The notes under the pieces are model-generated. The model saw only the letters and a list, made by a program, of their open reading frames with translations. It had not been told where the DNA came from and searched no databases. The translations under genes were made by a program, and so were the position numbers. A stretch of DNA of 64,000 nt from Tuwongella immobilis (GTDB lineage Bacteria > Planctomycetota > Planctomycetia > Gemmatales > Gemmataceae). Positions 40,301 through 57,132 of the stretch are shown in pieces (the stretch's first letter is position 1; every line of letters starts with the position of its first letter). Location of the stretch: NCBI RefSeq assembly GCF_901538355.1, contig NZ_LR593887.1, positions 2,022,920 to 2,086,919 of the forward strand, given 5' to 3'.

Positions 40301-40778
40301 ATCGGATCTCGCCGTCCTGGTCGCATCGATTCTGCAAGAAACGCAGTTACCGCCGGAATACCTCGAACTCGAATTGACCGAAAGTCTGTTGCTGCCGGAT
40401 GTTCCGGAATCCGAACGGCTGATTGCCGCCTTGAGCAAACTCGGGGTCAAACTCGCAATCGACGATTTTGGCACGGGCTATTCCTCGCTGAGCTATTTGC
40501 GACGATTGCCGGTCGATCGCCTCAAAATCGATCGCTCATTTGTGAGCGGCCTGCCCGATAATCCCCGCGATGCAACCTTGGTGCGGGCGATTACCGGACT
40601 CGGGCACGATCTGCATCTGCGAGTGATTGCCGAGGGAATCGAAACCGCCGAGCAGTGCCGGTTTCTGCGATCCTGCGGCTGCGATGAAGGCCAAGGATTC
40701 TGGTTCGGACGGCCATTGGAAGCGGAAAAGATTCACACCGCCGTGCAAAATCTTCCGCCACGCCAGCCAATCGGTTAA
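37383..40778 (+). CDS. Membrane-bound multi-PAS GGDEF-EAL protein
   Basis: This 1,131-residue protein has two N-terminal membrane helices (FGFGLVWILATDMAIWG and VGKGVLFVFISACLIFLLL). Four to five PAS/PAC domains follow between residues about 80 and 690, each with the ITARK/ITANK-type linker (VGIARDITTRKEMELEL, VKEDITARKQIEASL). The GGDEF domain has the intact RLGGDEF active site near residue 779. The EAL domain has ESLLRW in place of EALLRW at 907, and the catalytic Asp pair DDFGTGYSSLSYL near 1030 is intact. Both synthesis and hydrolysis of cyclic di-GMP are therefore possible. A GAGGTG site precedes the ATG. It overlaps the copA stop by four bases tail to tail, so it is not part of the Cmr or copper units. 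Confidence 0.93.
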   Translation: MSAPLQPESIWETGVERTTPLRIASIYFGFGLVWILATDMAIWGSDEAHFSEFVAAVGKGVLFVFISACLIFLLLQRAIYRVIRVVQLLRAVIDGTHDAIFLKDLQGRYVLCNSATLKMLGQSESEVLGKTAKDLFHPDSARRLEEHDRFVIQLNEPETTEEHLQFQVAKRVLLTTKAPYRDLNGQVLGVVGIARDITTRKEMELELRRMTTWLQEVSELAHVGGWEYDVRAQMGTWTSESARIFGSSDPEFSRESVERCFTPEDFELLQSTFVKHLNRVGSCEIEFPITNRNGQRRWIRVIGKPVWEHGELHRFRGSLQDITARREDEERIRQLSVAVEQSPATIVITDAQGTIQYANPAFTRVTGYRAEEVLGQNPRILKSGQMSAEFYREMWSTLTAGVVWRGEILNRKKDGSLYWEAASISPLHNDAGVTTHYVAVKEDITARKQIEASLRRSEEQFRAFMEHSPTAAWICDAQGHLEFLSSTCSRILPMIAEPTPGATIQGIFPREIAAMLSSPELANQPTGSVKTTTVSIRQEPDSVREIMVVQFPLPRPDHGIAMGGIAADITELRLAEERLRVLGAAIDSSPNAVFIADRGGIIRWANPAFTQLSGYELAEIVGHTPRILKSGRQTENFYQALWQSILTGRVWTGEIVERHKSGREYIVRQTITPLAGPDGTVAQFVAVQEDITANKQAEAKLRDLVVTDTLTNLLNRSGFRDRLSQSLHSGTHALHFIDLDRFKLVNDALGHLAGDELLRQVAERLRLRIRADDVAARLGGDEFAILQPNVTDPLAASGLAQGILETLSRPFDIFGDEVRIGCSIGITFYPQDGTSSEVLLKNADLAMYQAKQSGRGTFRFFTIELEREVQARIALETELRRALERQEFTLLFQPQVDLVRGELIAAESLLRWQHPVRGLIGPGAFLTVAEESGLILPIGEWVLRAACRQARAWLDANCPIRVAVNISVAQFQRSDLAVLVASILQETQLPPEYLELELTESLLLPDVPESERLIAALSKLGVKLAIDDFGTGYSSLSYLRRLPVDRLKIDRSFVSGLPDNPRDATLVRAITGLGHDLHLRVIAEGIETAEQCRFLRSCGCDEGQGFWFGRPLEAEKIHTAVQNLPPRQPIG

Positions 40779-43111
40779 TCGGTGCCTCGCTCAAAAACCG
40801 GCTGCGACGGTTGGAATCGACGCAATCGTAAGGCGTTGGTGATGACGCTGATTGACGACAGAGCCATGGCCGCCGATGCCAGAATCGGGCTGAGCAGCCA
40901 GCCGGTGAACGGGTAGAGCAGACCCGCGGCGATGGGGATGCTCAGGGCGTTGTATGCGAATGCGAATGCGAGATTCTGGCGGACGGTGGCCATCGTCTGT
41001 CGAGCGAGTTGGAGCGTGGTGGCGACAGCGCGAAGGTCGCCGCGAACCAGTGTGATCGGGGCCGATTCCATGGCCAAATCGGTGCCGGTGCCCAGTGCGA
41101 TGCCAACATCGGCTTGTGCAAGTGCGGGGGCGTCGTTGAGGCCATCGCCGACCATGGCGACGCCGATGTTTTGATGTTGATATTCCGCGACAATGTCGGA
41201 TTTTTCGTGCGGCAACAATTCCGCTCGCACTTCGCGGATGCCGACTTCTTCGGCGATGCGCTCGGCGGCGGGGCGTTGATCGCCCGTTAGCATCACGACC
41301 CGCACGCCAAGCTGGTGCAGGGCGGCGACTGCCTCCCGCGAGGTGGCCTTGAGCGGATCACGCACGGACATCCACCCCGCCAGCGTTCCATCGACTGCGA
41401 CGCCCATCCGCGTTTCGCCCGGCGCGATTTCGTCCATCGGCAGCGGAATGCCCAATTCGTTGAGATAGCGAGCGTTGCCAATTTGCACGCGGCGATCCCG
41501 GCAGATGCCTTCCACGCCTTTCCCGGGGATGGCACGCACGGAATCGACGGGCAGCAGCGCGAGTTGACGTTCCGCGCTGGCGGCGACAATCGCTTTGGCG
41601 ATCGGGTGTTCCGAGCCGGATTCGATGCTCGCGGCCCATTGCAGCAATTGCGATTCGCTCCAACCGGATTCGGGATGGATTTCCGTCAGTGTCGGCTTGC
41701 CTTCGGTCAGCGTGCCGGTCTTATCCAGCAGCACCATGCCGATGCGTTCCGCATGTTGCAACGCGACGGCATTGCGCACGAGGATGCCCAACTGCGCCCC
41801 GCGCCCGGTGCCGACGAGGAACGCCGTGGGGGTGGCCAATCCCAACGCACACGGGCAGGCAATCATCAGCACGGAAATGCTGGCGAGGCTGGCCATGGCG
41901 ATGCGATTTTCCGGGCTGCCCCAGATCCACCACGCCAAAAAGGTCACGGCGGCGATGCCCAGCACAATTGGCACAAAGACGGCGGCGATGCGGTCGGCAA
42001 TCTGCTGAATCGGCGGCTTGGTGCCCTGCGCTTGCTGCACAATGCGGATGATCTGTTGCAGCATGGTATCGCGGCCAAGCGTGGTGACCTCCATGCGAAT
42101 GCGGCCGATGGTGTTGATGGTGCCGCCGATGATTCGATCTCCGGGGCCACGCTCCACCGGCAACGGCTCGCCGGTCAGCATGCTCTCATCCAGTGCCGTC
42201 TCGCCATCGCGGATGGTGCCATCGGTCGGCACGCGCTCGCCGGGGCGAATTTCCAGGCGATCGTTCAGCCGAATTTCTCGCAGCGGAATCTCGGCCCAGT
42301 CGCCGTGGCGCTCCACCCGAGCAGTGGCCGGTCGCAGATTCATCAGCGACGTGATGGCGCTTCGGGTTCGGCGCGTCGCACCCGATTGCAACAGATTGCC
42401 CAACAGAATCAGCGTGATGATGCTGGCGGTGACTTCGAAATAAATCGGCAACATTGGCCCGGAAGCGTGCCCCAGATGGGCCGCGTGTTCGCCGAGAAAC
42501 CACTGCGGTTGCAGCAGTGCGGCCACGCTGAGCAGATACGCCGCGATTGCCCCAATGGCGACGAGCGTATTCATGTTCGCCGAGCCGTGACGGCCGACCC
42601 GCCAGGCATCGGCGATCAACCCGCGTCCCGCGATAACCAACACGGGAGTTGTCAGCAGCCATTCGACGAAAAAGCGTTGATTTCCGGTCAGAATCGAGCC
42701 AATCCAACGATCGATGGCCGGAATCAGGTGGCCGCCCATGGCCAACAGCACTACCGGCACGCTGAGGATTGCCGCCAGCGCGAAGCGGTGTCGAAGTTCG
42801 CGGTATTCGGCGAGTTCGGCCAAGGCTTCTGGCGATTGATTGGGGTCGGGCAGATCATCCAGCCCCGCCTGGGGTTGCGGCAAAATCGCATCGAAGCCGG
42901 TATCGCGCACGCGCTCCTGGAGTTGTTCCGGCGATTGCTGCGCGGGAGTGTAGCGAATGGTGGCCCGTGCGGTGGCGAAATTGACCGTTGCATCGGTCAC
43001 GCCGGGCGTGTTCCGCAGCGCGGATTCCAAACGGGCCGCACACGAGGCACAGTGCATGCCCAGAATCGGCACATCGATCGATTCAACGGGAGTTGTTGGA
43101 GAGGTGTTCAT
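40775..43111 (-). CDS. copA: Copper-translocating P1B-type ATPase CopA
   Basis: This 778-residue P-type ATPase exports Cu(I). An N-terminal metal-binding domain carries GMHCASC (C21, C24). The TM6 motif CPC (C419-P-C421) is followed by the phosphorylated aspartate in DKTGTLTEGKP (about D465), HPIAKA (the SEHP motif), and GDGLNDAPALAQADV. TM7 has AYNALSIPIAAG and TM8 MALSSISVITNALRL, both diagnostic for the Cu(I) class. It is the last gene of a minus-strand unit with csoR 25 bases upstream, under two CsoR-type operators. Confidence 0.95.
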   Translation of the reverse strand: MNTSPTTPVESIDVPILGMHCASCAARLESALRNTPGVTDATVNFATARATIRYTPAQQSPEQLQERVRDTGFDAILPQPQAGLDDLPDPNQSPEALAELAEYRELRHRFALAAILSVPVVLLAMGGHLIPAIDRWIGSILTGNQRFFVEWLLTTPVLVIAGRGLIADAWRVGRHGSANMNTLVAIGAIAAYLLSVAALLQPQWFLGEHAAHLGHASGPMLPIYFEVTASIITLILLGNLLQSGATRRTRSAITSLMNLRPATARVERHGDWAEIPLREIRLNDRLEIRPGERVPTDGTIRDGETALDESMLTGEPLPVERGPGDRIIGGTINTIGRIRMEVTTLGRDTMLQQIIRIVQQAQGTKPPIQQIADRIAAVFVPIVLGIAAVTFLAWWIWGSPENRIAMASLASISVLMIACPCALGLATPTAFLVGTGRGAQLGILVRNAVALQHAERIGMVLLDKTGTLTEGKPTLTEIHPESGWSESQLLQWAASIESGSEHPIAKAIVAASAERQLALLPVDSVRAIPGKGVEGICRDRRVQIGNARYLNELGIPLPMDEIAPGETRMGVAVDGTLAGWMSVRDPLKATSREAVAALHQLGVRVVMLTGDQRPAAERIAEEVGIREVRAELLPHEKSDIVAEYQHQNIGVAMVGDGLNDAPALAQADVGIALGTGTDLAMESAPITLVRGDLRAVATTLQLARQTMATVRQNLAFAFAYNALSIPIAAGLLYPFTGWLLSPILASAAMALSSISVITNALRLRRFQPSQPVFERGTD

Positions 43112-43136
43112 GAGTTGACTCGTGGAGGAATGGGAA

Positions 43137-43442
43137 TCATTTCAGGAATTGGCTGAGTGCGTATTGCAGCTCGTCGAGCAGTTGCTCGCGGGACATGGCT
43201 TGCGCTTGCGGATGGGCGTGGGATTCGCCGCATTCGCTGGTTTCGGGTGGCAGAATGCAGTTCTGCAAATGCTGGGTCAGCAATTCCACGCCGAGCGCAT
43301 CCAACGCGGAGCGAATGGCGGAGATTTGCTGCAACACATCAATGCAGTAGCGTTTTTCGTCGATCATCCGCTGCACGCCGGTGACTTGGCCGGCGATTCG
43401 CTTGATGCGCGACTGAACAGATTTGGTCCGATCGGCGTCCAT
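43137..43442 (-). CDS. csoR: Copper-sensing repressor CsoR
   Basis: This 101-residue helical protein belongs to the CsoR/RcnR family. The copper-binding triad Cys-His-Cys is visible (RYCIDVLQQI, then LLTQHLQNCI). The N-terminal SVQSRIKRIAGQVTGVQRM segment gives the DNA-binding basic face. The ATG at 43442 was chosen because the family starts about here and two CsoR boxes lie just upstream; the longer open frame runs through the boxes and is unlikely. It should repress its own operon with copA, and derepress when it binds Cu(I). Confidence 0.92.
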   Translation of the reverse strand: MDADRTKSVQSRIKRIAGQVTGVQRMIDEKRYCIDVLQQISAIRSALDALGVELLTQHLQNCILPPETSECGESHAHPQAQAMSREQLLDELQYALSQFLK

Positions 43443-43463
43443 CGATAGCCTCCGTAGATTGGA

Positions 43464-43478
43464 TACCCCCCAGGGGTA
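43464..43478. promoter_or_regulatory. CsoR operator, proximal copy
   Basis: TACCCCCCAGGGGTA is a near-perfect palindrome of the GC-tract type bound by CsoR family repressors. It lies 22 bases upstream of the csoR start. An identical 15-bp copy is found 33 bp further upstream (centre to centre), so they sit about three helical turns apart. Confidence 0.85.
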
Positions 43479-43496
43479 CTTCCCAATGGCATGATA

Positions 43497-43511
43497 TACC
43501 CCCCAGGGGTA
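43497..43511. promoter_or_regulatory. CsoR operator, distal copy
   Basis: The second TACCCCCCAGGGGTA is identical over all 15 bases to the proximal copy. The spacer between the copies is 18 bases (CTTCCCAATGGCATGATA), which places the csoR-copA promoter between or within the operators. Confidence 0.85.
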
Positions 43512-43633
43512 CATTGTCAAGCGTGGGGATGGCTTGGCCGTTCGGAAAACGACATCGCCCCCGGAAGTGGCGGCAACCACAACCGGGGGCGAGCAGCGAT
43601 TTCGGCGATGCGAGTGAGCGGTGTGCCGCGCGT

Positions 43634-43861
43634 TTACGCGGGCGGGAAGCCGGCTTTGAGTAGCGCCCCGGCAATTTCTTCGCGAGAGATGCTGCGGCCA
43701 TGCACCACGCGAACGCGGTGCGTTGGCACTTCGACATCGACCGAGCGAATATCCGGAAGGCGATTGATGGCCGATTTCACGGCGGCGGCGCATCCCTGAC
43801 AGACAATTCCGCCAACAGTGATTTCCGTTGTTGATGTGGGAAGTTCATGGCTGACAGTCAT
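43634..43861 (-). CDS. copZ: Copper chaperone CopZ-like (HMA domain)
   Basis: This 75-residue protein is a single heavy-metal-associated domain. The metal-binding motif is GIVCQGC near residues 18-24, followed by AAVKSAINRLPDIRSVDVEV, the usual first helix and second strand. It should pass Cu(I) to CopA and perhaps to CsoR. CGAGGA just upstream supports the ATG at 43861. It lies upstream of the two CsoR boxes on the same strand, so it is either read with hemB or ends before the csoR promoter. Confidence 0.88.
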   Translation of the reverse strand: MTVSHELPTSTTEITVGGIVCQGCAAAVKSAINRLPDIRSVDVEVPTHRVRVVHGRSISREEIAGALLKAGFPPA

Positions 43862-43899: not shown

Positions 43900-46130
<2,231 letters not shown>

Positions 46131-46140
46131 ATGCAACCGG

Positions 46141-46722
46141 ATGGATACATCGCCCAGTTTGCTGGAACGCCTGAATCATCACCCCGATGCTGCCGATTGG
46201 CGGCGGTGGTATGATCTGTATACGCCGCTCATCCGCAACTGGTTGGGTGGGTTGGGGTTACGTTTTGCCGATGTCGAAGACCTGGTGCAAGATGTGCTGG
46301 CGGTGGTGGTGCGGCGGTTGCCGGAATTTCGGCACAATGCCCGAGTGGGTGCCTTTCGCAAATGGCTGCGAGGAATCACGGTCAATTGCTTGCGAGAGCA
46401 TTTGCGGGCCGGCAAACAATGTCCCGTAGCCGCAGATCAGGCCGTATTAGCCGAACGACTCGACCAATTGGCAGATGAGCAATCGTCGATGTCTCAGCAA
46501 TGGGACGCCGAGCATGATCGGTTGGTGATGCGAAAGCTGTTGGAACAAGTCCGCGCCACGGTCGAACCGACCACGTGGGACGTGTTTGAACAATTCGCAT
46601 TGAACGGTCGCTCGGCAGCGCAGGTGGCCCAACAATTTCGCATTTCCACGAATGCCGTGTTTATCGCCAAGTCTCGCGTGCTTCAGAAGTTACGGCAGGA
46701 AGCCGCAGGGTTGATCGAATAA
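46141..46722 (+). CDS. ECF-type RNA polymerase sigma factor
   Basis: This 193-residue protein has the two conserved ECF parts. Region 2 spans about residues 20-95: WYDLYTPLIRNWL, DVEDLVQDVLAVVVRRL and AFRKWLRGITVNCLREHL. Region 4 spans about 130-190: TTWDVFEQFALNGRSAAQVA and the helix-turn-helix ISTNAVFIAKSRVLQKLR. It lies 10 bases after the WD40 gene and 88 bases before the kinase gene, and the pairing with a kinase that carries a zinc-type anti-sigma motif suggests it is controlled by that protein. The promoters it reads are unknown. Confidence 0.93.
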   Translation: MDTSPSLLERLNHHPDAADWRRWYDLYTPLIRNWLGGLGLRFADVEDLVQDVLAVVVRRLPEFRHNARVGAFRKWLRGITVNCLREHLRAGKQCPVAADQAVLAERLDQLADEQSSMSQQWDAEHDRLVMRKLLEQVRATVEPTTWDVFEQFALNGRSAAQVAQQFRISTNAVFIAKSRVLQKLRQEAAGLIE

Positions 46723-46810
46723 TTTTCGGCGATGGGTGAAAGGTTTTTCCGCGCCGCGTCATTTCCAGATAGACCGATGAGATTTTCCGATTCCCGGCGA
46801 GAATGGTGAC

Positions 46811-49120
46811 ATGGCGAACTCCCCTCAACCCGATGTTCACCCCAGTGCCGAACTGTTGCAGGCGTTTGCCTGTGGGCGATTATCGTCTGCGCAAATGAGC
46901 GTCTTGGAACCGCACCTTTCGACCTGCTCGATTTGCGCCGAACGACTCGCAACCGTCGGCCCGGATTCATTTCTGCGATTGGCACAAGCGGCGAGTCAAC
47001 CGACCGAAGCACCCGATCTGGGCGTCACCACGTTGGGCGAAGTCAGCACGCCAGACGTGCCGCGCGTGCGGGTCGTGACGGTGGACGGCGTCGAAATTCC
47101 TGAGGCGTTGCAGGATCATCCCCGGTATCGCATTTTGAAAATGCTGGGCGTCGGCGGCATGGGGATGGTCTACCTGGCCGAGCATCGCCTGATGGAACGG
47201 CAAGTGGCGTTGAAGGTGATTGCCCCGCATTTGGTGGTGCGCTCCGATGCCGTGGATCGCTTCCGCCAGGAAGTGCGAGCCGCCGCCCGATTGACGCACC
47301 CCAACATTGTCACCGCTCACGATGCGGAACAGGCCGGCGATCTCCACTTTTTGGTCATGGAATATGTCGAAGGGATCGATCTAGCCCGATTTGTGCAGCG
47401 TCGCGGACCGTTGACGGCACCGCAAGCATTGAATTTGATCCGCCAAGCGGCGATGGGATTGCAGCACGCCCACGAGCGCGGCATGGTGCATCGGGATATC
47501 AAGCCGCAAAATCTGATGGTGACGCGCAAGGGCGTGCTGAAGATTCTGGATTTCGGCCTCGCCCGATTCGCCAGTGAGCAACTCGCTCCGCAGGGGATGC
47601 CCAACGTGCCCGAAGCGATGCGCGGCTCGATTACCGCCGCCAGCATGGTGCTGGGCACCCCGGACTATCTCGCCCCGGAACAGGCGCGCTCGTCGAAAGT
47701 GGACATTCGCGCCGATCTGTATTCGCTGGGCTGCACGCTCTATTTCCTGCTGACCGGGCGGGTTCCGTTCAGCGGCGACACGGCGATTGCCAAGATGTTC
47801 AAGCATATGGAAGAAGATGCGCCGCTGGTCAGCAGCATCCGCCGCGATTGCCCCGCCGATGTCACGCAACTGGTCCGCCGCATGATGGCGAAGAAGCCAG
47901 AGCAGCGATTCAACACACCTGCGGAATTGGTGCAAACCATCACGCAACTGCAACGCAATCGCTTGCGAGCGGCGGGTAGTCCCACCAATGAAGAGGATGT
48001 GCCCGAAGTGCTGGTGCTGGAAGCGGATGATGCGGCCACAGCGACACCCACGCCCACGCCTGCAGCTCGCCCATCTGGCGCGAATCGCACGACGCCCGTG
48101 GCGGAAGCGACGGAAGTGCTCTCGCCATCGAAGTCGCAGCGCAGTAAGGAGATGCGACGACGCAAGCAGGTGGAAGCGAAACGCCGACAGCAGAAATGGG
48201 TCATCGGCATCGCCAGTTTCTTGGTGGCCACCGTCGCGGGTGTGTTTCTGAGCATGATGCTGCTGGGGCCGCAGGGCGATCCGAATTCCGGCGGTGGGCC
48301 GATGAATCCGCAGATGATGGCGCAAGGTGGGCCGGGCGGGCCGGGCGATCGTGGGCCGGGTGGGCCGAAGATTGGGCCGATGGGGGGACCGATTGGTCCG
48401 CCGAATGGGCCAAACGGCCAGCCGATGAATGGTGCCAATGGTCCGGGTGGGCCAAATGATCCGAGTGATGGCGGATTCCAGGGGCCGCTCGGTGGGTTGG
48501 TGTTCAACAAATTGAAGAACGCGTACAACGACAAAATGGGCCGACCGCGGGGGCCGCTGGGCAAGTTTGGGCCGGGCCGCAATCCCAATCGCGTGCTGTT
48601 TGTGTTGCCGCCGACTGGAGTTTGGTACCCGGATTATGAGCCGGTGCGCCGCGAACTCGAAGCAGCGGAATACGAAGTGGTGGTGGCATCCACCGATGTG
48701 CGCGAGGCGAAGCCGGTACCCATGGGCGGTGGCTCGCCGATTCCGGTGGATCGCTCGCTGGTTTCGGCGATTGATTCTCGGGACTTCGCGGCGGTGTTCT
48801 TCTGCGGATACGACGTTGATTTGCTGCTGAAACAGCCCGAAGTGCGGAAGAATATCGATTCGTTGATCGATGATATGCTCCGACAAGGCAAACCCGTGAC
48901 GGCGCTATGCTACGGCGTGCGGGTGCTGGTGGAGTTGGACAAACTCGACGGAATGCGGGTCGCCACGACGGAAGAAATTGCCAAGAAGTACCCGAATCGG
49001 GATATTCGCTGGGTGTATCAATCGGTGGCGCTGGATGGTGCGTTTCTCACCGGCGATCATCAACGCAGTGCCGAGGCGTTCGCTCAGGCGTTCGTGCGGC
49101 GGTTGACCAAGCCGAAATGA
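46811..49120 (+). CDS. Fusion protein: anti-sigma-type zinc motif, Ser/Thr kinase, membrane helix, DJ-1/PfpI domain
   Basis: This 769-residue protein joins four parts. Residues about 10-50 contain PHLSTCSICAERL, an H-x3-C-x2-C pattern as in zinc-binding anti-sigma factors. The kinase domain at 105-370 is complete (GVGGMGMVYLAEH; VHRDIKPQNLM near 225; ILDFGLARF near 245). A Pro/Thr linker precedes one membrane helix (VIGIASFLVATVAGVFLSMML, about 461-482). A Gly/Pro/Asn/Met-rich spacer leads to a DJ-1/PfpI domain at about 594-769: RVLFVLPPTGVWYPDYEPVR, VVVASTDVREAK, and the nucleophile elbow ALCYGVR with Cys700. The last domain should be extracytoplasmic. The gene follows the ECF sigma gene. 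Kinase and zinc parts fit sigma control; the role of the PfpI part is unknown. Confidence 0.9.
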   Translation: MANSPQPDVHPSAELLQAFACGRLSSAQMSVLEPHLSTCSICAERLATVGPDSFLRLAQAASQPTEAPDLGVTTLGEVSTPDVPRVRVVTVDGVEIPEALQDHPRYRILKMLGVGGMGMVYLAEHRLMERQVALKVIAPHLVVRSDAVDRFRQEVRAAARLTHPNIVTAHDAEQAGDLHFLVMEYVEGIDLARFVQRRGPLTAPQALNLIRQAAMGLQHAHERGMVHRDIKPQNLMVTRKGVLKILDFGLARFASEQLAPQGMPNVPEAMRGSITAASMVLGTPDYLAPEQARSSKVDIRADLYSLGCTLYFLLTGRVPFSGDTAIAKMFKHMEEDAPLVSSIRRDCPADVTQLVRRMMAKKPEQRFNTPAELVQTITQLQRNRLRAAGSPTNEEDVPEVLVLEADDAATATPTPTPAARPSGANRTTPVAEATEVLSPSKSQRSKEMRRRKQVEAKRRQQKWVIGIASFLVATVAGVFLSMMLLGPQGDPNSGGGPMNPQMMAQGGPGGPGDRGPGGPKIGPMGGPIGPPNGPNGQPMNGANGPGGPNDPSDGGFQGPLGGLVFNKLKNAYNDKMGRPRGPLGKFGPGRNPNRVLFVLPPTGVWYPDYEPVRRELEAAEYEVVVASTDVREAKPVPMGGGSPIPVDRSLVSAIDSRDFAAVFFCGYDVDLLLKQPEVRKNIDSLIDDMLRQGKPVTALCYGVRVLVELDKLDGMRVATTEEIAKKYPNRDIRWVYQSVALDGAFLTGDHQRSAEAFAQAFVRRLTKPK

Positions 49121-49141: not shown

Positions 49142-49969
49142 TCATCCACTGCGTCGATACAGCGTCGTCAGGCCGACGCGGACGGGTTCGAGCGGCAACG
49201 AGATTTGCAGCAGATTCTCCGCCGCTCCCAGAATGAGCCAGCCGCCAATCGGCAGAAGCTGACATAGCCGCCGCAAAATCTGTGTGCGGGTCGGCAAGTC
49301 GAAGTAAATCAGCACATTCCGACATAGGATGAGGTCAAATCCGACAAAGTCGGGCCATGACTCGATGAGATTCAGCATCGAAAACTGGACCATCTGCCGC
49401 ATTTCGTCGCGAATCTGCCAGTTGGTGCCGACCGGGCGGAAGTGGCGATGCAGGCGAATCTCGCTGAGCCCGCGTTGCACTTCGTGCGGCGTGTAGATTC
49501 CGGCTTGGGCAATGCTCAGACACCGCTGCGAAATATCCGTCGCGGTGATGCGGTCGGCACTGATTCGCGGGAGTCCTTCGGTAGTGGCGCGCAACTCCCG
49601 GAGCAGCATGGCGATGGAGTACGGCTCTTGTCCGGTGGAGCAGGCAACCGACCAGATGCGCATGCCGTGCCCGCTGGCCAGATGTGGCGGCAGAATCTGT
49701 TGCCGAATCGCCTCGAACGGGTGCCCATCTCGAAAGAACGAAGTTTCTGGTGTGGTAATCGCCTCGACCACGGCCTGATGCAAGTCGCAGCGCACGGCCG
49801 ATCCGCGTAGCCGATTCGCCAATTCTTCCCAATTTCGGCATTCATGCTGGGCCAACAGCGGCGACAATCGCTGCACCAGCAGATAATCCTTGTCCCGTTG
49901 CAGATGAATCCCGCACAGACGATGGATTTGCTGGCGAATTTCTTCGCTGGCATGTTCGGTGAGGATCAT
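49142..49969 (-). CDS. cheR: Chemoreceptor methyltransferase CheR
   Basis: This 275-residue protein methylates glutamates of the chemoreceptor using SAM. ETSFFRDGHPFEAIRQQI, the SAM site IWSVACSTGQEPYSIAMLL, ITATDISQRCLSIAQAGIY and FDLILCRNVLIYF are the family signatures. No TPR extension is present. It overlaps cheB by four bases (ATGA), and is the last gene of the minus-strand chemosensory operon. The kinase-PfpI gene ends 21 bases away on the other strand. Confidence 0.95.
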   Translation of the reverse strand: MILTEHASEEIRQQIHRLCGIHLQRDKDYLLVQRLSPLLAQHECRNWEELANRLRGSAVRCDLHQAVVEAITTPETSFFRDGHPFEAIRQQILPPHLASGHGMRIWSVACSTGQEPYSIAMLLRELRATTEGLPRISADRITATDISQRCLSIAQAGIYTPHEVQRGLSEIRLHRHFRPVGTNWQIRDEMRQMVQFSMLNLIESWPDFVGFDLILCRNVLIYFDLPTRTQILRRLCQLLPIGGWLILGAAENLLQISLPLEPVRVGLTTLYRRSG

Positions 49970-51045
49970 CGAAATCCCTCCGAATCGGTGAGCAATCGTC
50001 CGGCAAAGGTGGCCATTTCTCCAATGGGGACGACGGCATCTGCCCCACCGGCGCTGGCGATACTGCCGGGCATGCCCCAGACAATGCTACTAGCCTCATC
50101 TTGTACGAGAATCACGCCGCCGGCGCGCTTGATGGTGCTGGCGCCGCGGGTGCCGTCGTTGCCCATGCCGGTGAGCACAATCGCCAGCACGCGGCCATCG
50201 CAAACACTGGCCGCCGATCGAAACAGCACATCCGCCGCCGGGCGACAGAGATTCTCGGGCGGATGCTGATTCAGCACAGTCACCAACTGCGTCCCCTCGC
50301 GGCGTAGCAGCAGATGAAATCCGCCGGGGGCGATGTAAATTCCCTGGGGATCAACCGGGGTGCCGTTGGTGGCTTCCATCACGGGCCGGGCACAGATGCG
50401 GTTGAGATTTTCCGCCAGCGATGCCGTGAAGGAAGCTGGCAAATGCTGCACGATGAAAATCGGCTGCCGACAGCGACGCGAGAATTCCGGGAGAAACTGC
50501 TCCAGCGCACGCGGGCCGCCGGTCGAAGCCGCAACGACAACGATTTCAATGGCACGCGGCGGAATGCTGGGCAGTGGCTTGGGCGGAGCAACGGTTGTCG
50601 GCGAGTTGCCCGGAGCGCGTTGCAGCAGAAACAAGCGAATTTTCGTCTGCAATTGCTGGCGGAGTTGTCGGATATTTTCCTCGGGATTCGGGAAATTCGG
50701 CTTGGTGATGAAGTCGAACGCACCGGCTTGCAATGCTCGCACGGTCGTGCTGGCGCCCCAACCGGTGAGCGAACTGACCATGATGATGCCGGTCTGTTCG
50801 TGCTTGGGCCGCGTGAGATTTTGCTGGTGCATCACTTCCAATGCTGCCATGCCCCCCATGCCGGGCATCTCGACATCCAGCGTCACCAAGTTGGGTTTCA
50901 ACGTGCGGAACAGATTGACGGCGGTTTCGCCATCGGGGGCGCTTCCGATGACCTCGATGCCGGGAATTTCGCTCAGCGCGGTGCGAAGGACCGAGAGAAA
51001 GACCCGGGAATCATCGACCAACAGAATCCGCCCCAATTCGGCCAT
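49966..51045 (-). CDS. cheB: Chemotaxis response regulator methylesterase CheB
   Basis: This 359-residue protein has an N-terminal receiver (ILLVDDSRVFLSVLRTAL; phosphorylated Asp in LVTLDVEMPGMGG; Lys in FDFITKPNF) and a C-terminal methylesterase. The catalytic triad is visible: Ser in VVAASTGGPRAL, His in IVQHLPASF and Asp in GMGNDGTRGA. It removes receptor methyl groups after phosphorylation by CheA and so gives adaptation. It starts two bases after the receptor stop and overlaps cheR by four bases. Confidence 0.95.
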   Translation of the reverse strand: MAELGRILLVDDSRVFLSVLRTALSEIPGIEVIGSAPDGETAVNLFRTLKPNLVTLDVEMPGMGGMAALEVMHQQNLTRPKHEQTGIIMVSSLTGWGASTTVRALQAGAFDFITKPNFPNPEENIRQLRQQLQTKIRLFLLQRAPGNSPTTVAPPKPLPSIPPRAIEIVVVAASTGGPRALEQFLPEFSRRCRQPIFIVQHLPASFTASLAENLNRICARPVMEATNGTPVDPQGIYIAPGGFHLLLRREGTQLVTVLNQHPPENLCRPAADVLFRSAASVCDGRVLAIVLTGMGNDGTRGASTIKRAGGVILVQDEASSIVWGMPGSIASAGGADAVVPIGEMATFAGRLLTDSEGFR

Positions 51046-51047
51046 GC

Positions 51048-53309
51048 CTATGCCTCCAAGCGGAATCGTTTGACGATCGCTTGTAATTCTCCCGAGATTT
51101 TCTGCAATTGGGTGGCGGCGGTGGTCAATTCCTTGGCACTCAGCGAGGTTTGCTGACTGCTTTGGCTGACTTGCTGAATGCCAGCGGTGATTTCGCGCAC
51201 GCCTTGGGCGGCTTCAGCAGCGTTGCGCGAGACATCGTTGGCACCCTTGGCGGCCTCACCCGCGTTGCGAGACATTTCCGTCGTCCCTTTCGAGACTTCC
51301 GAAATCGAGTTGGCGATTTCGCCCACACTGTGACTCGCTTCGCCCAGATTATCCGAGCTACGTTTGGCGAGCACCGATTGTTCTTCCACCGAAACACGAA
51401 TCGTCGAAGCCGCCGCGCTCAATTGATTGATGACTTCCGAGACGCTCTCGATGGCACGCACGGCATCGCGGGTACTGGTCTGCACGGCCTCAATCTTGCG
51501 GGTGATATCTTCTGCGGCTCGGGCGGATTGCGTGGCGAGCTCTTTAATCTCATGTGCCACCACCGCAAACCCCTTGCCCGCATCTCCCGCTGCGGTCGCT
51601 TCAATCGTCGCATTCAGCGCCAGCAAGTTCGTTTGCAGGGCGATCATCTTGATCGTTTCGCTGACTTTGCCAATCTCGCCGGCGGCTCGATCCAAGTGAC
51701 TCATGGTCCCGCTGGCATGGTTCGCCATCTCGCGGGCGCGGTCGGCAATCACCGTTTCTTCGCGGGCTTCTCGGGCGATGTTCTCAAACGTGCGAGTCGA
51801 CGTGACAATCGCACTGGTGACGGTCGTGACTTTGTCCGACGTTTGTTCCGCCGCTTTGGAGATCATGCCCACATTGACGCTGATTTCTTCGCTGGCCGAC
51901 GAAATCGAGATCATGTTGATGCTCATCTGCTCGGCGGCACCAGCCATCATGTTGATATTCGTGGTCATCTGCTCCGCCGCCACCGCCACATGCCGGGCTC
52001 GCGACGACATATCGTCGCTTTGCGTGAGCAGTTTCTTGGAGACGCTATCGAGCTGATTGGCGGAGCCGTTGATTCCGGTGGCCACCGTGGAGAGGTCGGT
52101 CAGCACATGCCCGAAGGCATCGGCGACGCGGTCCATGGCATTGGTCAATAACCCGACTTCGTCGCGTCGATCCAGTTTCAATCGGCGGGTCAAATCGCCA
52201 TCGGCCAACGCGCTGGAGAGTTCCACCCCCTTGGCCAACGGGCGGACGATTCCACGAGTGATCGTCAGCGCCAGAAAGATACTGATGGTGATTCCGAATC
52301 CCGGAACGGAAAGCATCAGATTCCGCGCCAAGCGAGTCATCGATTCGAGGCTGTCGGAATCGACTTCCAGCCGGGTATGCAGCTTGTTGGTGAGATCTTT
52401 CAGCGCGTTGAGCGAGTTGATGGTGTCCATCTCGGTGGCGGCCAACAGCTTCGTCGTCTCGGCATTGGAATCGATGCGTGACAGGCGGATGACTTCGCTG
52501 AATTGCGGGCGCATGTCCAGGAATTCTTTCGACAATCGTTCGACCAATGGCTTCACTGGGCCATCGACTTGCGTGAGCAGATTGTTGATGTTGCGGTCGA
52601 TTTGCTCCTGCAATTCGGTGATGCGGGCTTCAATCTTTTCAAATCCCTCGTCCACCCGCGTGTTGATGTGCGTGGTCAGCCAATTCGGGAGTTCGAGGAT
52701 GTCGCGTTCGAGTTCCAGGATGATGCGGAGTTTCCCTTCCATGGCGATGAGCTTGTCCAGGTCTTTGGCCGCCAAGATGGCGTCGCGATCCCGCAGCACC
52801 GCCTCGCGGACCGATTGACAGACATTTTGCCAACTGCGAATGCGAGGCGAAATCGTCGATTTTACCGATTCGCGGGCTTTGCCGAGGGAGTTTTCCAGGC
52901 CGATCTTCAGGACTTGTTGCTGATTGGCGGCGCAGCGTTCCCAGGAGTTTTCGAATTGGCTGGCAAGTTTGGCCTCTTCCAGAAAGCCGTTCTTTTCCAA
53001 ATCGGTTGGCAGTGTTGCGCGGGCGGTGTCGATGGTGGCGGCTTTTTCGAGCGATTCCTTGGCATGTTTCGCGGCCAATTGCGGGTCATCGGTCAGCAAC
53101 GCGGCGCGTTCTTGCAGCAGCGTCGCCCCGACGAGAATCCGCAACTCCATGCTTTTGCGTTCCAGATCCGCCGTGGTGTCGATCATCCGATTCAGATCGG
53201 TTTCCACTTTGGAGAATTGATAATATCCAACCGCAGCAATGGAGAGCGAGGTCAACGCCATCACCGCGATGATGATGATCATTTTGGTGGAAATTCGCCA
53301 GTTTTTCAT
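51048..53309 (-). CDS. Methyl-accepting chemotaxis protein
   Basis: This 753-residue receptor has a first membrane helix (MIIIIAVMALTSLSIAAVGYY) and a long helical periplasmic sensor (about 32-335) rich in coiled coil. A second membrane helix follows (SVPGFGITISIFLALTITR), then a HAMP domain with RPLAKGVELSSALADGDLTRR. The signalling domain carries the conserved hairpin tip MIALQTNLLALNATIEA and GKGFAVVAHEIKELA. No CheR-docking pentapeptide is at the C-terminus. It is the only receptor in the operon, so this system probably senses one class of signal. CheW lies 23 bases upstream. Confidence 0.95.
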   Translation of the reverse strand: MKNWRISTKMIIIIAVMALTSLSIAAVGYYQFSKVETDLNRMIDTTADLERKSMELRILVGATLLQERAALLTDDPQLAAKHAKESLEKAATIDTARATLPTDLEKNGFLEEAKLASQFENSWERCAANQQQVLKIGLENSLGKARESVKSTISPRIRSWQNVCQSVREAVLRDRDAILAAKDLDKLIAMEGKLRIILELERDILELPNWLTTHINTRVDEGFEKIEARITELQEQIDRNINNLLTQVDGPVKPLVERLSKEFLDMRPQFSEVIRLSRIDSNAETTKLLAATEMDTINSLNALKDLTNKLHTRLEVDSDSLESMTRLARNLMLSVPGFGITISIFLALTITRGIVRPLAKGVELSSALADGDLTRRLKLDRRDEVGLLTNAMDRVADAFGHVLTDLSTVATGINGSANQLDSVSKKLLTQSDDMSSRARHVAVAAEQMTTNINMMAGAAEQMSINMISISSASEEISVNVGMISKAAEQTSDKVTTVTSAIVTSTRTFENIAREAREETVIADRAREMANHASGTMSHLDRAAGEIGKVSETIKMIALQTNLLALNATIEATAAGDAGKGFAVVAHEIKELATQSARAAEDITRKIEAVQTSTRDAVRAIESVSEVINQLSAAASTIRVSVEEQSVLAKRSSDNLGEASHSVGEIANSISEVSKGTTEMSRNAGEAAKGANDVSRNAAEAAQGVREITAGIQQVSQSSQQTSLSAKELTTAATQLQKISGELQAIVKRFRLEA

Positions 53310-53332
53310 GATTGTCGCACTCCAACGCTGGG

Positions 53333-53863
53333 CTAGGACGATGCAGGAGAGGGGATTGTCAACGATTGTTCCAAAAGTGGAATCAATCGCTCGGCATCCA
53401 GCAACAAGCAGAGTTCCCCCTGTCGTTTACCGATGCCCAACAGCAAATCTTCGCCCGGTAATTCCACCATGGCCGAACTGGGCGGTTCGATCCGATCCCG
53501 TGACAATCGTTCGATGTCGCCAATGGCGTCCACCAACACGCCAAACGGGTCGTTGCCAGGAGATTCCAACAACACCAACCGATGATCCGCAATCGGCGAT
53601 TGCTCACCGGCTTGCAGCAATTGGCGCAAATCGATCACCAAATGAATCGTCCCTCGCAGATTCACGTATCCACCCACCAGATTGCTGGCGTGCGGAATCG
53701 GTGTGATCGGCGGGGGCAGCGTCACTTCCCGCACCTGTTCCAACTGCAGCGCAAACAGATACGCGCCGATTCGGAAGGTGAGGATCTGAATTTCGCTTGG
53801 CTGCGGGACGTTACGGTCGCGGATCGCCAGGGCGTTGCTACGGATCGGCACGAGGTCACTCAT
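53333..53863 (-). CDS. cheW: Coupling protein CheW
   Basis: This 176-residue CheW links receptor and CheA. The double-barrel fold signatures are ILTFRIGAYLFALQLEQVRE, PIPHASNLVGGYVNLRGTIHLVIDLR-type (outline, about 57-82) and GVLVDAIGDIERL. It begins in a four-base overlap (ATGA) with the end of cheA. The ATG gives MSDLVPIRSNALAIRDRN before the first strand, a normal length for the family. Confidence 0.94.
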   Translation of the reverse strand: MSDLVPIRSNALAIRDRNVPQPSEIQILTFRIGAYLFALQLEQVREVTLPPPITPIPHASNLVGGYVNLRGTIHLVIDLRQLLQAGEQSPIADHRLVLLESPGNDPFGVLVDAIGDIERLSRDRIEPPSSAMVELPGEDLLLGIGKRQGELCLLLDAERLIPLLEQSLTIPSPASS

Positions 53864-56800
53864 CGCTCACCTCCGCGGCCCGCCGGCAGCATATCCCGCA
53901 CCGTTTGCAAGAATCGTTCGCGGTCGAGTTTGACTTCGTGTCGATCGAATCCCAATTGGCGGGCCTTTTCGCGGTCATTTTCGCTATTGAGCGTGGTGAG
54001 TGCCAGCAGTGGCACGTTCGCCCCGTGGCGGTGTTCGCGCAAATTGCGAGCGAATTCCCAGCCATCCATCACTGGCATTTCGATATCCGAGACGATCAAA
54101 TCAAATGGTTCTTCGCGTTCGACAATCGCCAGCCCCTCCGCGCCGTTGACGGCCGTGGTGACGGTGAAGTGCAGCGTCTCCAGATAGCCCCGCACCAGAT
54201 GCCGAAAGAACTGCGTATCTTCCACCAGCAGGACGCGACGGGGGCGATCTCGGCCACGCAGCGGTTGCGTCGCCTGAATTGCGCGATTCGGTCGTTCGTG
54301 CTGTTCGACCAGATCCGCGAGTCGGAAAATGTCCAGAAATAGCGTGATTTTCTGATTCACCAACTGCGTGCCCACCAACCCATCCACCGGGCAAGTGTCC
54401 GGCGTCACTTCCAGTTTCACCGGAATCGTGTCGATCACCTCGGTGATGACCACGCCCATGGCGCGGCGGACATTCTTCGGCAAAATCAGCAGTTGATTCT
54501 GACTCGGCGAAGTCGGCGAGACGGAGAGCATTTTTTCCAGCCGCACCAGCAGCGTCGAAACGCCATCGATGGTCAGAAATTCCCGATCGCCGACCCGTTC
54601 CACTTTGTTGATATCCAGCGGCACAATGCGGCGAATCATCGCCAACGGCAAGGCAAATTGCTCCTGCGGCCCGGAGCGGAACAGCAGCACATTTTGCACC
54701 GAATCCGCCTCGGGATTGGCCGCTTGCGTCGCCAGCGCGGTGGTCGATTGGAAGCGAACACCCACATGCCGAGCGATGCCTTCGACGCTCAGAATCAGCG
54801 AGACTTTCCCGTCGCCCAGAATGGTCGCCCCACTAAAGCAGGCGAGTCGTTTGAGCGAATTGTGCATCGGTTTGACGACGATTTCTTCCGGGGAGAGAAT
54901 CTCGTCCACGACCAGGCCAAAGCGTTGATCGCCGACTTTCACCACCGCAAACCAGAGCATCAGATCCGTGCACTGGCGATTGACGCGATGCCGGCGCAAA
55001 ATGTCGCTGCGATCCGCACTCGTGAACGGACGCGGATGCGAGAGAACCTCCGAAAGACGCACCAAGGGCAATAATTGGTCGCGCAATCGGACCACTTCTT
55101 GATCGAATGCCGTCTCCACACGCTGGGCAATATGCTCGCCGTGGAGACAGACCAATTCCTCTAAGTCCTTCTGCGGCAAGGCGTAGCGTTGGGAACCAAT
55201 GCGCACCAGCAAGCAGGGAATAATCGCCAGTGTCAACGGCACGCGCAGCAGGAATGTGGTGCCTTGGCCCGGTTCGGATTCGATCTCCAGGCCGCCGCCC
55301 AACCGATCGAGATTGACTTTGACGACATCCATCCCCACGCCACGGCCCGAGACATCGGTGACGGCGACCGCGGTGGAGAAGCCCGGCAACAGAATCAGCG
55401 AATAGAGTTCGCGCGGGCTCATCCGATCGAGTTCGGCAGAAGTGCTGAGACCATTTTGCAGCGCTTTGCGGCGAATCGAAACCGGATCGAGTCCTTTGCC
55501 ATCATCGGAAATTTCGATGGTAATTTGGCCGCCATGATGCCGAGCGTTGAGCGAAATCCGCCCCTCGGCCGGTTTGCCGGTCGCCAGTCGCCGTTCGGGC
55601 GATTCGATGCCATGATCGCAGGCATTGCGGATCAGGTGCGTGAGCGGATCGGAGAGCGTCTCCAGCACGGTCTTGTCGAGTTCGACTTCGCTGCCGGTAA
55701 TCTCCAGTCGAATCTGTTTGCCCAACTGCCGCCCTAAGTCCCGCACCAATCGAGGGAAGCGATTGAACAGATTGCCCACCGGCTGCATGCGGGTGCGCAT
55801 CACCGCATCTTGCAATTCGCTGACGATGCCGTTGAGCCGCTGCACGATTGGTCGAAGACTCGTATCGTTGGGCGAAACGGACTGCATCACCTGATTGCGA
55901 ATCAGCACCAGTTCCCCGGCTAGTGTCATCAGATGATCGACCAACTGCACGGGAATCCGCAGGGTACTGGATTTTTCCATCCCCGGCGGCTGGTTGCTGC
56001 TCGCACTCGCGCTGGCCGAATTCGCCCCCATTGGCAATTCGCTGATGCCGCTTTCGCTGGGGGCCAAGGTCGTTCCGGCGAGCGGCATCAATGTCGGCGA
56101 TGGCGTGAGCGTGGCGGTGCTGACCGCCAGCGATTGCGGAGCCGGAGTCGGCGTGGCCGGGGGCCGCACCAGCGCGGGATCGCCGCTGGGCACAAGTGGC
56201 TCGACGCGAGGAGCCGGATGCGTCACAACCGCTTCTGAAATCACGGCTTGCGGCGACGGAACGGTTTCGGTCGCGGTGACGGGCAGTTCGACGATGACCA
56301 ACTCCACCATCGGAATCGGCAGCGCAGCGCGGAACTGCAACGGCGGAAGCGGGCTGGCGATGAGTGCCCGATAGCGGATCGCACCTTGCGGCAGCCCACC
56401 AGACAGATCCCGTTCCGGGACATCGAGTTGCGCCAGCAGAATCACGCCTGCTCGTTGGATGAGCTCCAACACTTGGACCGGCGTTCGTTGCTGCTGCTGG
56501 AAGCAGGCCATGAAATCGACCGTCAGCCCGTACAAATGATCGTGCGTCGCGGGGCGTTCGGCCAATGGCGGGCCGGGCACTTCAAATCGTGCCAGGGTTT
56601 GCAGATACGGCGATTGCGGGGCACCCGTTGCGGCGCTGCCCGATGCTGCGGATGCACTCGATTCCGACGATGACGATGCGCCAGCAGTTGGACCCGCCAT
56701 CGAAGCCGGGCCGCCCGCCGATCCGGGGGGGGATGCGGGGGATTGGCCGAAGGCGGCTTCGCGGAGCTTTTCGACGAGACCGGAGACATCCTCCAGGTGG

Positions 56801-57132
56801 CAATGCTCAAGGTCGTCGATTAGCGCGACCATGCGATCGTTGGCCGACAGCAAGAGATCGATAACGGCATGGGTGGGGAGTTGGCGTTGGGCGCGGAGTT
56901 GCTCCAACACCGTTTCCATGGCGTGAGCGAGGGATTCCACGATGGAAAATCCCAGCACGCCGGCGGTGCCTTTGACGGAGTGAATGGCGCGGAACATCTC
57001 CTGGACCGATCCCGCCCATTCGGACGGCGGCCGACGTTCGAGCGCGATCAAATCATCGCTCAAATGGGTGAGATGTTCTTTGGCCTCGGCGACAAATTCC
57101 AGTGCCAGCGGGGAATCGACGGCTATACCAAT
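53860..57132 (-). CDS. cheA: Hybrid histidine kinase CheA (Hpt, kinase, two CheW-like domains, receiver); non-canonical start
   Basis: This protein of about 1,090 residues is WspE/hybrid-CheA-like. The Hpt domain has the phosphorylated His in AIHSVKGTAGVLGF. A Pro/Ala-rich linker follows. The kinase core has LVDHLMTLAGELVLIRNQVM (dimerisation), HLIRNACDHGIESPERR, DDGKGLDPVS and GRGVGMDVVKVNL. Two CheW-like regions follow (IGSQRYALPQKDLEELV; EQFALPLAMIRRIVPLD), then a receiver with Asp in LIVSDIEMPVMDGW. The Hpt helix A (PLALEFVAEAKEHLTHLSDD) lies upstream of the first usual start codon, a TTG at 57063. In frame only ATT (57132), ATA (57126) or CTG codons are available, so the start is uncertain. 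The gene overlaps the Hpt-STAS stop. Confidence 0.88.
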   Translation of the reverse strand: MGIAVDSPLALEFVAEAKEHLTHLSDDLIALERRPPSEWAGSVQEMFRAIHSVKGTAGVLGFSIVESLAHAMETVLEQLRAQRQLPTHAVIDLLLSANDRMVALIDDLEHCHLEDVSGLVEKLREAAFGQSPASPPGSAGGPASMAGPTAGASSSSESSASAASGSAATGAPQSPYLQTLARFEVPGPPLAERPATHDHLYGLTVDFMACFQQQQRTPVQVLELIQRAGVILLAQLDVPERDLSGGLPQGAIRYRALIASPLPPLQFRAALPIPMVELVIVELPVTATETVPSPQAVISEAVVTHPAPRVEPLVPSGDPALVRPPATPTPAPQSLAVSTATLTPSPTLMPLAGTTLAPSESGISELPMGANSASASASSNQPPGMEKSSTLRIPVQLVDHLMTLAGELVLIRNQVMQSVSPNDTSLRPIVQRLNGIVSELQDAVMRTRMQPVGNLFNRFPRLVRDLGRQLGKQIRLEITGSEVELDKTVLETLSDPLTHLIRNACDHGIESPERRLATGKPAEGRISLNARHHGGQITIEISDDGKGLDPVSIRRKALQNGLSTSAELDRMSPRELYSLILLPGFSTAVAVTDVSGRGVGMDVVKVNLDRLGGGLEIESEPGQGTTFLLRVPLTLAIIPCLLVRIGSQRYALPQKDLEELVCLHGEHIAQRVETAFDQEVVRLRDQLLPLVRLSEVLSHPRPFTSADRSDILRRHRVNRQCTDLMLWFAVVKVGDQRFGLVVDEILSPEEIVVKPMHNSLKRLACFSGATILGDGKVSLILSVEGIARHVGVRFQSTTALATQAANPEADSVQNVLLFRSGPQEQFALPLAMIRRIVPLDINKVERVGDREFLTIDGVSTLLVRLEKMLSVSPTSPSQNQLLILPKNVRRAMGVVITEVIDTIPVKLEVTPDTCPVDGLVGTQLVNQKITLFLDIFRLADLVEQHERPNRAIQATQPLRGRDRPRRVLLVEDTQFFRHLVRGYLETLHFTVTTAVNGAEGLAIVEREEPFDLIVSDIEMPVMDGWEFARNLREHRHGANVPLLALTTLNSENDREKARQLGFDRHEVKLDRERFLQTVRDMLPAGRGGER

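Follow-up and report, generated by a model that had tools for sequence, protein, structure and literature searches.

An ECF sigma factor gene adjoins that of a membrane kinase with an anti-sigma-like zinc domain and an outer DJ-1/PfpI domain in Tuwongella immobilis

Analysis of 64,000 nucleotides from the genome of Tuwongella immobilis (6.69 Mb, a single contig; the whole stretch is hereafter called the window) reveals a gene pair that looks like an STPK-linked ECF system of a broadly known type, yet of an unusual build in that the kinase itself contains an anti-sigma-like domain. The first gene encodes an ECF sigma factor, and the second a 769-residue protein which combines a zinc domain, a Ser/Thr kinase, one membrane helix and an outer DJ-1/PfpI domain (Table 1). 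We see about an even chance that this kinase, by virtue of a built-in class I anti-sigma domain, holds the sigma factor and frees it upon a signal perceived by the external domain. Domain order, kinase motifs, the anti-sigma-like fold, charge topology, synteny and co-retention of the sigma factor form the basis of this proposal, as derived from sequence and structure prediction; from there we infer that the kinase binds the sigma factor, that phosphorylation works the switch, and what kind of signal is involved. The recurrence of the pair in related bacteria suggests a genuine signalling module.

Table 1. Features of the sigma-kinase gene pair, in positions of the window
Feature	Position	Strand	Basis
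ECF sigma factor, 193 aa	46141..46722	+	Pfam, TIGR02937
769-aa membrane protein: ZAS-like anti-sigma domain, Hanks kinase, TM helix, DJ-1/PfpI domain	46811..49120	+	
ZAS-like class I anti-sigma domain (putative), aa 10-62	46838..46996	+	alignment, profile, AlphaFold2, Foldseek
Ser/Thr kinase domain, aa 106-369	47126..47917	+	PF00069, motif search
Single TM helix, about aa 463-485	48197..48265	+	hydropathy scan
Pro/Gly-rich linker, extramembrane, aa 486-594	48266..48592	+	sequence
DJ-1/PfpI domain, aa 595-769; elbow Cys700 (48908-48910); Asp608 at DJ-1 Glu18 position	48593..49117	+	

Both open reading frames are found where the preliminary description had placed them, with a gap of 88 bp between the sigma gene and the kinase gene. 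The sigma factor belongs to the ECF class, scoring 33.8 bits against Sigma70_r2 (PF04542; cut-off 24) and 58.9 bits against TIGR02937 (cut-off 42.9); its region 2 spans aa 24-90 and includes an acidic DVED motif at aa 44-47, and its region 4 (about aa 143-186) is weak, with a Pfam score that is sub-threshold only. A gene for a WD40-repeat protein (45033-46127, plus strand) ends about 10 bp before the start of the sigma gene, a spacing at which co-transcription would be possible; we considered this gene as a part of the module and rejected it, as no homologue is found near the sigma-kinase pairs of relatives. The window also contains an ordinary metal efflux unit, that is, a copper-type P-ATPase (40775-43793, minus strand; HMA, E1-E2 and HAD) with the gene of a metal-sensitive repressor (PF02583) just before it, and, near the kinase gene on the opposite strand, a chemosensory cluster (49142-57063, minus strand). 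According to Pfam, the latter encodes a HAMP-containing MCP and a hybrid of CheA, CheW and receiver domains; CheR-, CheB- and CheW-like open reading frames were recognized from their sequences.

The N-terminal domain of the 769-residue protein appears to represent a class I zinc anti-sigma-like fold with putative zinc ligands. The anti-sigma-type motif H-x3-C-x2-C noticed earlier is indeed present as H35-x3-C39-x2-C42 and does not vary across the 23 sequences aligned. H10, which is probably the fourth ligand, had been overlooked; residue 10 is His or Cys in all 23 members. When compared with zf-HC2, the window protein scores 13.2 bits and thus remains below the cut-off of 22.2, which a homologue from the sister family reaches exactly (22.2 bits). 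The sequence profile of the domain matches the anti-sigma factors DdvA (E 2e-5) and ChrR (1.5e-4) and, weakly, RsiW. An AlphaFold2 model based on the 23 sequences, with a modest overall pLDDT of 73.8 and a core above 90, comprises four helices (residues 13-20, 26-38, 40-48 and 52-62), i.e. a predicted three-helix bundle plus a fourth helix as in ZAS/ASDI proteins. All 11 PDB chains offered by Foldseek for this model belong to four sigma/anti-sigma entries (two of SigE-ChrR, and one each of SigL-RslA and SigK-RskA), although the best Z-score of 6.9 is likewise modest. Model residues 6-77 align onto residues 2-74 of ChrR, whose zinc ligands we take to be H6, H31, C35 and C38, so that H10, H35, C39 and C42 fall on these four positions. 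In anti-sigma factors, helix 1 touches sigma4, helix 4 touches sigma2, and the Hx3Cx2C motif spans helices 2 and 3 (PMC7406223). The motif of the window protein also lies over helices 2 and 3 of the model, and helix 4 is well conserved across the aligned fusions (consensus DSLAxLARAA).

Alternatively, the kinase might activate the sigma factor by direct phosphorylation, as PknT does for EcfP and PknS for EcfK, in which case the zinc domain would merely dock the substrate. Such a scheme would agree with the conserved kinase-sigma synteny described below, and a review counts the planctomycete groups ECF59, ECF61, ECF62 and ECF217 among those linked to an STPK and predicted to be targets of phosphorylation (PMC8999054). 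In EcfP-type systems, however, the kinase restores an acidic motif that is missing from region 2.2 (PMC8103513, PMC8999054), and this signature, the replacement of acidic by uncharged Ser/Thr residues seen in ECF43-type factors, is absent here: the motif reads DVED in the window's sigma factor and is likewise acidic in nearly all of the relatives (DxxD/DxDD, in most cases DADD). The preserved acidic motif makes an EcfP-type phospho-switch unlikely, and phosphorylation should then not be required for the binding of RNA polymerase, unlike in EcfP; phospho-activation of this specific type was rejected on the DVED motif. Moreover, a full anti-sigma-like fold exceeds a docking peptide. We thus consider direct phosphorylation of the sigma factor to be an unlikely, if still respectable, explanation.

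The kinase domain scores 181.7 bits against PF00069 and possesses the Gly loop, VALK, HRDIKPQN, DFG and APEQ motifs of a Hanks-type Ser/Thr kinase, in agreement with its initial assignment as intact. A pattern search shows intact kinase motifs in nearly all full-length fusions, with L051 being missed by the VAxK pattern and the APE position reading SPEQ in most of them. The protein is distinct from PASTA kinases, as its score against NF033483 (333.9 bits) is below the cut-off of 450 and its outer part is a DJ-1 domain. Five Lys/Arg residues precede the membrane helix and none follows it; the basic residues on its N-terminal side place the kinase inside and the DJ-1 domain outside, so that the single helix and the external position of the DJ-1 domain proposed at the outset are both borne out.

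Membership of the outer domain in the DJ-1/PfpI superfamily is indicated by a score of 47.1 bits against DJ-1_PfpI (PF01965; aa 612-763), which, with a cut-off of 26.6, rules out a chance match. VIA-align gives Z-scores of 22-25 between the AlphaFold2 model of the domain (mean pLDDT 96) and PfpI, SAV1875 and human DJ-1, and the structures matched at about 25 include the variants E18D of DJ-1 and E17D of SAV1875. Cys700, recognized early on as a nucleophile-elbow residue, is indeed located at the start of the helix that follows model strand 102-105. The complete set of residues expected of a glyoxalase/deglycase or of a PfpI protease (Glu, elbow Cys and the PfpI His) is not found. First, the position of DJ-1 Glu18 is occupied by Asp608, in a column with Asp in 25 of 27 and Glu in 2 of 27 members. 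Trp had been a candidate for this catalytic position and was rejected, since a larger alignment and the helix spacing place Asp608 there; the HMM alignment offers Glu610, which is not conserved, and because its register differs, that of Asp608 rests on the ungapped alignment. (In the comparison with free-standing DJ-1 proteins, only rows with DJ-1 letters were used, which leaves about half of the free-standing ones.) Second, the His that follows the Cys in PfpI is replaced by Tyr701 in the window and is absent from all aligned members. Third, the elbow Cys is present in 19 of the 27 aligned members, including the window, and replaced by Gly, Ala, Ser or Asp in 8; the latter include L048, L055 and L057, which are encoded next to a sigma gene, and the Cys is also lost in the sister-family protein G099.

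These observations bear on the possibility that the chemistry of the domain itself constitutes the signal, the domain acting outside the cytoplasm either as a functional glyoxalase or deglycase or as a redox sensor based on its cysteine. While the elbow Cys of the majority of members, the near-invariant acid (Asp, sometimes Glu) and the close fold match, including that with the two Glu-to-Asp variants, are in its favor, the loss of the Cys from several sigma-adjacent proteins and from G099, the missing His and the exchange of Glu for Asp are not, and E18D lowers the propensity of human DJ-1 for oxidation of Cys106 (PMC8270312). For the same reasons, namely Asp for Glu, the missing His and the loss of Cys in 8 of 27 members, enzyme activity is doubtful, and we judge it rather improbable that chemistry at this domain is the signal. 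Hence, of the glyoxalase- or protease-like sensing domain in the preliminary description, the sensor can be retained and the assumed activity is weakened: the domain probably serves for sensing and not for catalysis. We regard it as a sensor that binds a ligand or, in some members, responds to redox conditions, with enzyme activity not being obligatory.

A search with the DJ-1 domain in 95 genomes of the window's family yielded matches located in long open frames, and a profile of the fused domains served to separate kinase-borne from free-standing copies. Kinase-borne copies score at least 155 bits in 27 genomes (the window and 26 others). The copy of the sister family (G099) reaches 96 bits, whereas DJ-1 proteins of the order that stand alone do not exceed 82 bits. 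A total of 392 genomes across the phylum yielded one further kinase fusion (G182), which differs at the N-terminus and lacks both the zinc motif and a neighbouring sigma gene. Scanning genome contigs with the window's own DJ-1 domain revealed no relatives, whereas a scan with the domain of a relative gave one match, in Gemmata sp. IIL30. In a tree of the kinases, the 26 DJ-1 kinases of the family group together with weak support (81/85), and those of the sister family and of G182 are on long, unplaced branches, which is compatible with a single or with several fusion events. Two long planctomycete proteins (L064 and L149) contain a DJ-1/PfpI domain without a kinase; both look exported, and one has repeats similar to calcium-binding ones of the RTX type. 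The four-part fusion was unfamiliar when first noticed. It turns out to be a recurrent family within the order, and the literature searched contains no mention of a fusion of DJ-1/PfpI with a kinase; an earlier description of the zinc-kinase fusion may exist.

A sigma gene is located directly upstream of 15 of the 23 zinc-bearing fusions of the family (the window and 14 relatives) and also in the sister family (G099/L147; sigma factor 43% identical), that is, of 16 out of 24 in 16 genomes from two families, as is characteristic of STPK-linked ECF factors. In contrast, none of the three full-length fusions devoid of the zinc domain has an adjacent related sigma factor, nor does the G182 protein; for 0/3 versus 16/24 the association has a p of about 0.06, with small numbers and related species. 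Of the eight genomes with an unlinked fusion, six retain the orthologous sigma gene elsewhere, with no kinase gene behind it. A sigma clade of 19 members (support 100/100) comprises 19 genomes, all with the fusion (13 adjacent, 6 unlinked), and the best sigma factors of some 20 fusion-free genomes fall outside of it. The window's own sigma factor forms a long branch outside this clade, and G015 and G088 have an unlinked zinc-bearing fusion and no sigma factor in the orthologous clade. Co-retention of the sigma factor after unlinking argues for a functional pair and, together with the synteny conserved into a second family, sustains the link between kinase and sigma factor that had been suspected.

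At other loci (L097, L099, L100, L106, L113, L115 and L116), the gene behind a sigma factor of the same larger group encodes a zinc-kinase that ends differently at the C-terminus; by eye, we read these ends as zinc-ribbon-like, as WD40-like repeats and as others. Judged by sequence, the zinc-kinases form a modular set with swapped sensors, to which the DJ-1 protein belongs. The window's own genome encodes a second protein with a zinc anti-sigma-like N-terminus (L175; 788-aa frame in G000:C1:6482500-6488500), with no sigma factor of the same type adjacent to it. That the neighbourhood is accidental or historical, with the kinase having other targets and the zinc domain being a generic planctomycete add-on, would accommodate L175, the eight unlinked fusions and the two genomes without a sigma factor of the clade, but is decidedly improbable in view of the adjacency in 16 genomes of two families, the co-retention after unlinking and the pairing of paralogous sigma factors with zinc-kinases bearing other C-terminal domains.

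Our preferred reading is that the gene pair constitutes a one-step transmembrane signalling module, in which a ChrR-type zinc class I anti-sigma domain at the N-terminus of the kinase would bind the sigma factor encoded upstream and keep it at the membrane. The outer DJ-1-like domain would bind a ligand or, where Cys700 is kept, react via this residue, and either event would alter the pairing or the activity of the kinase; DJ-1 proteins dimerise, which makes ligand-driven kinase pairing a plausible route. Phosphorylation by the kinase, either of the anti-sigma domain in its own chain or of the sigma factor held there, would then free the sigma factor to RNA polymerase. A precedent in trans exists in Mycobacterium tuberculosis, where PknB phosphorylates the ZAS anti-sigma factor RshA and frees SigH (PMC8999054, PMC13147305). 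Points against a built-in anti-sigma domain are the modest model confidence and Z-score, the eight unlinked zinc-bearing fusions, G015 and G088 with no sigma factor of the clade, the position of the window's sigma factor outside the clade, and the small numbers behind the association. The transmembrane sensor with kinase control of a sigma factor, as originally envisaged, stands with respect to the sensor, the domains and the likely link, and is weaker with respect to the assumed enzyme activity.

STPK-linked ECF groups other than ECF43 retain the acidic motif that binds RNA polymerase and may differ from EcfP (PMC8999054), and a kinase with a seemingly full anti-sigma domain provides a concrete, testable answer for these groups. 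A tentative generalization, against which the balance presently leans, is that many 'kinase-regulated' ECF sigma factors of planctomycetes are sequestered by an anti-sigma domain that forms part of the kinase and are freed by phosphorylation in cis or trans, with swappable C-terminal sensors such as the DJ-1-like one. If true, this way of releasing a sigma factor would differ from the phosphorylation of sigma in EcfP-type systems as well as from the proteolysis of membrane anti-sigma factors. The kinase of the window also presents a DJ-1-superfamily domain as the extracytoplasmic portion of a receptor kinase, in bacteria that are rich in kinases and ECF factors to which no input has been assigned.

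Among known systems, the gene pair resembles the STPK-linked ECF factors (ECF59, ECF61, ECF62 and ECF217 of planctomycetes, and ECF43) in its gene adjacency, as there, too, the ECF gene is located beside one for a Hanks kinase that spans the membrane and has a domain outside the cytoplasm. In ECF43 systems (EcfP/PknT and EcfK/PknS), however, the sigma factor lacks DAED and is activated by phosphorylation, whereas the window's sigma factor keeps its acidic motif and its kinase, unlike those of ECF43 systems, carries an anti-sigma-like domain. With ChrR, RsrA, RshA and RslA, the zinc domain shares four helices (predicted here) and the H...Hx3Cx2C pattern, with a spacing as in ChrR and a fold as in ChrR, RslA and RskA; yet ChrR and RshA are separate proteins, and the zinc domain of the window is fused to a Ser/Thr kinase, a TM helix and a DJ-1 domain. 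The latter has the fold, the elbow Cys and an acid at the Glu18 position in common with PfpI, SAV1875 and human DJ-1, but differs in having Asp for Glu, no PfpI His, an extramembrane location and a Cys that is not conserved across its family. Finally, the SigH-RshA-PknB system of M. tuberculosis likewise unites three functions, an ECF sigma factor, a ZAS anti-sigma factor and a Ser/Thr kinase that releases the sigma factor (a role that is proposed here); there they reside in separate proteins with PASTA domains outside, whereas in the window the anti-sigma-like domain and the kinase share one chain with a DJ-1 domain outside.
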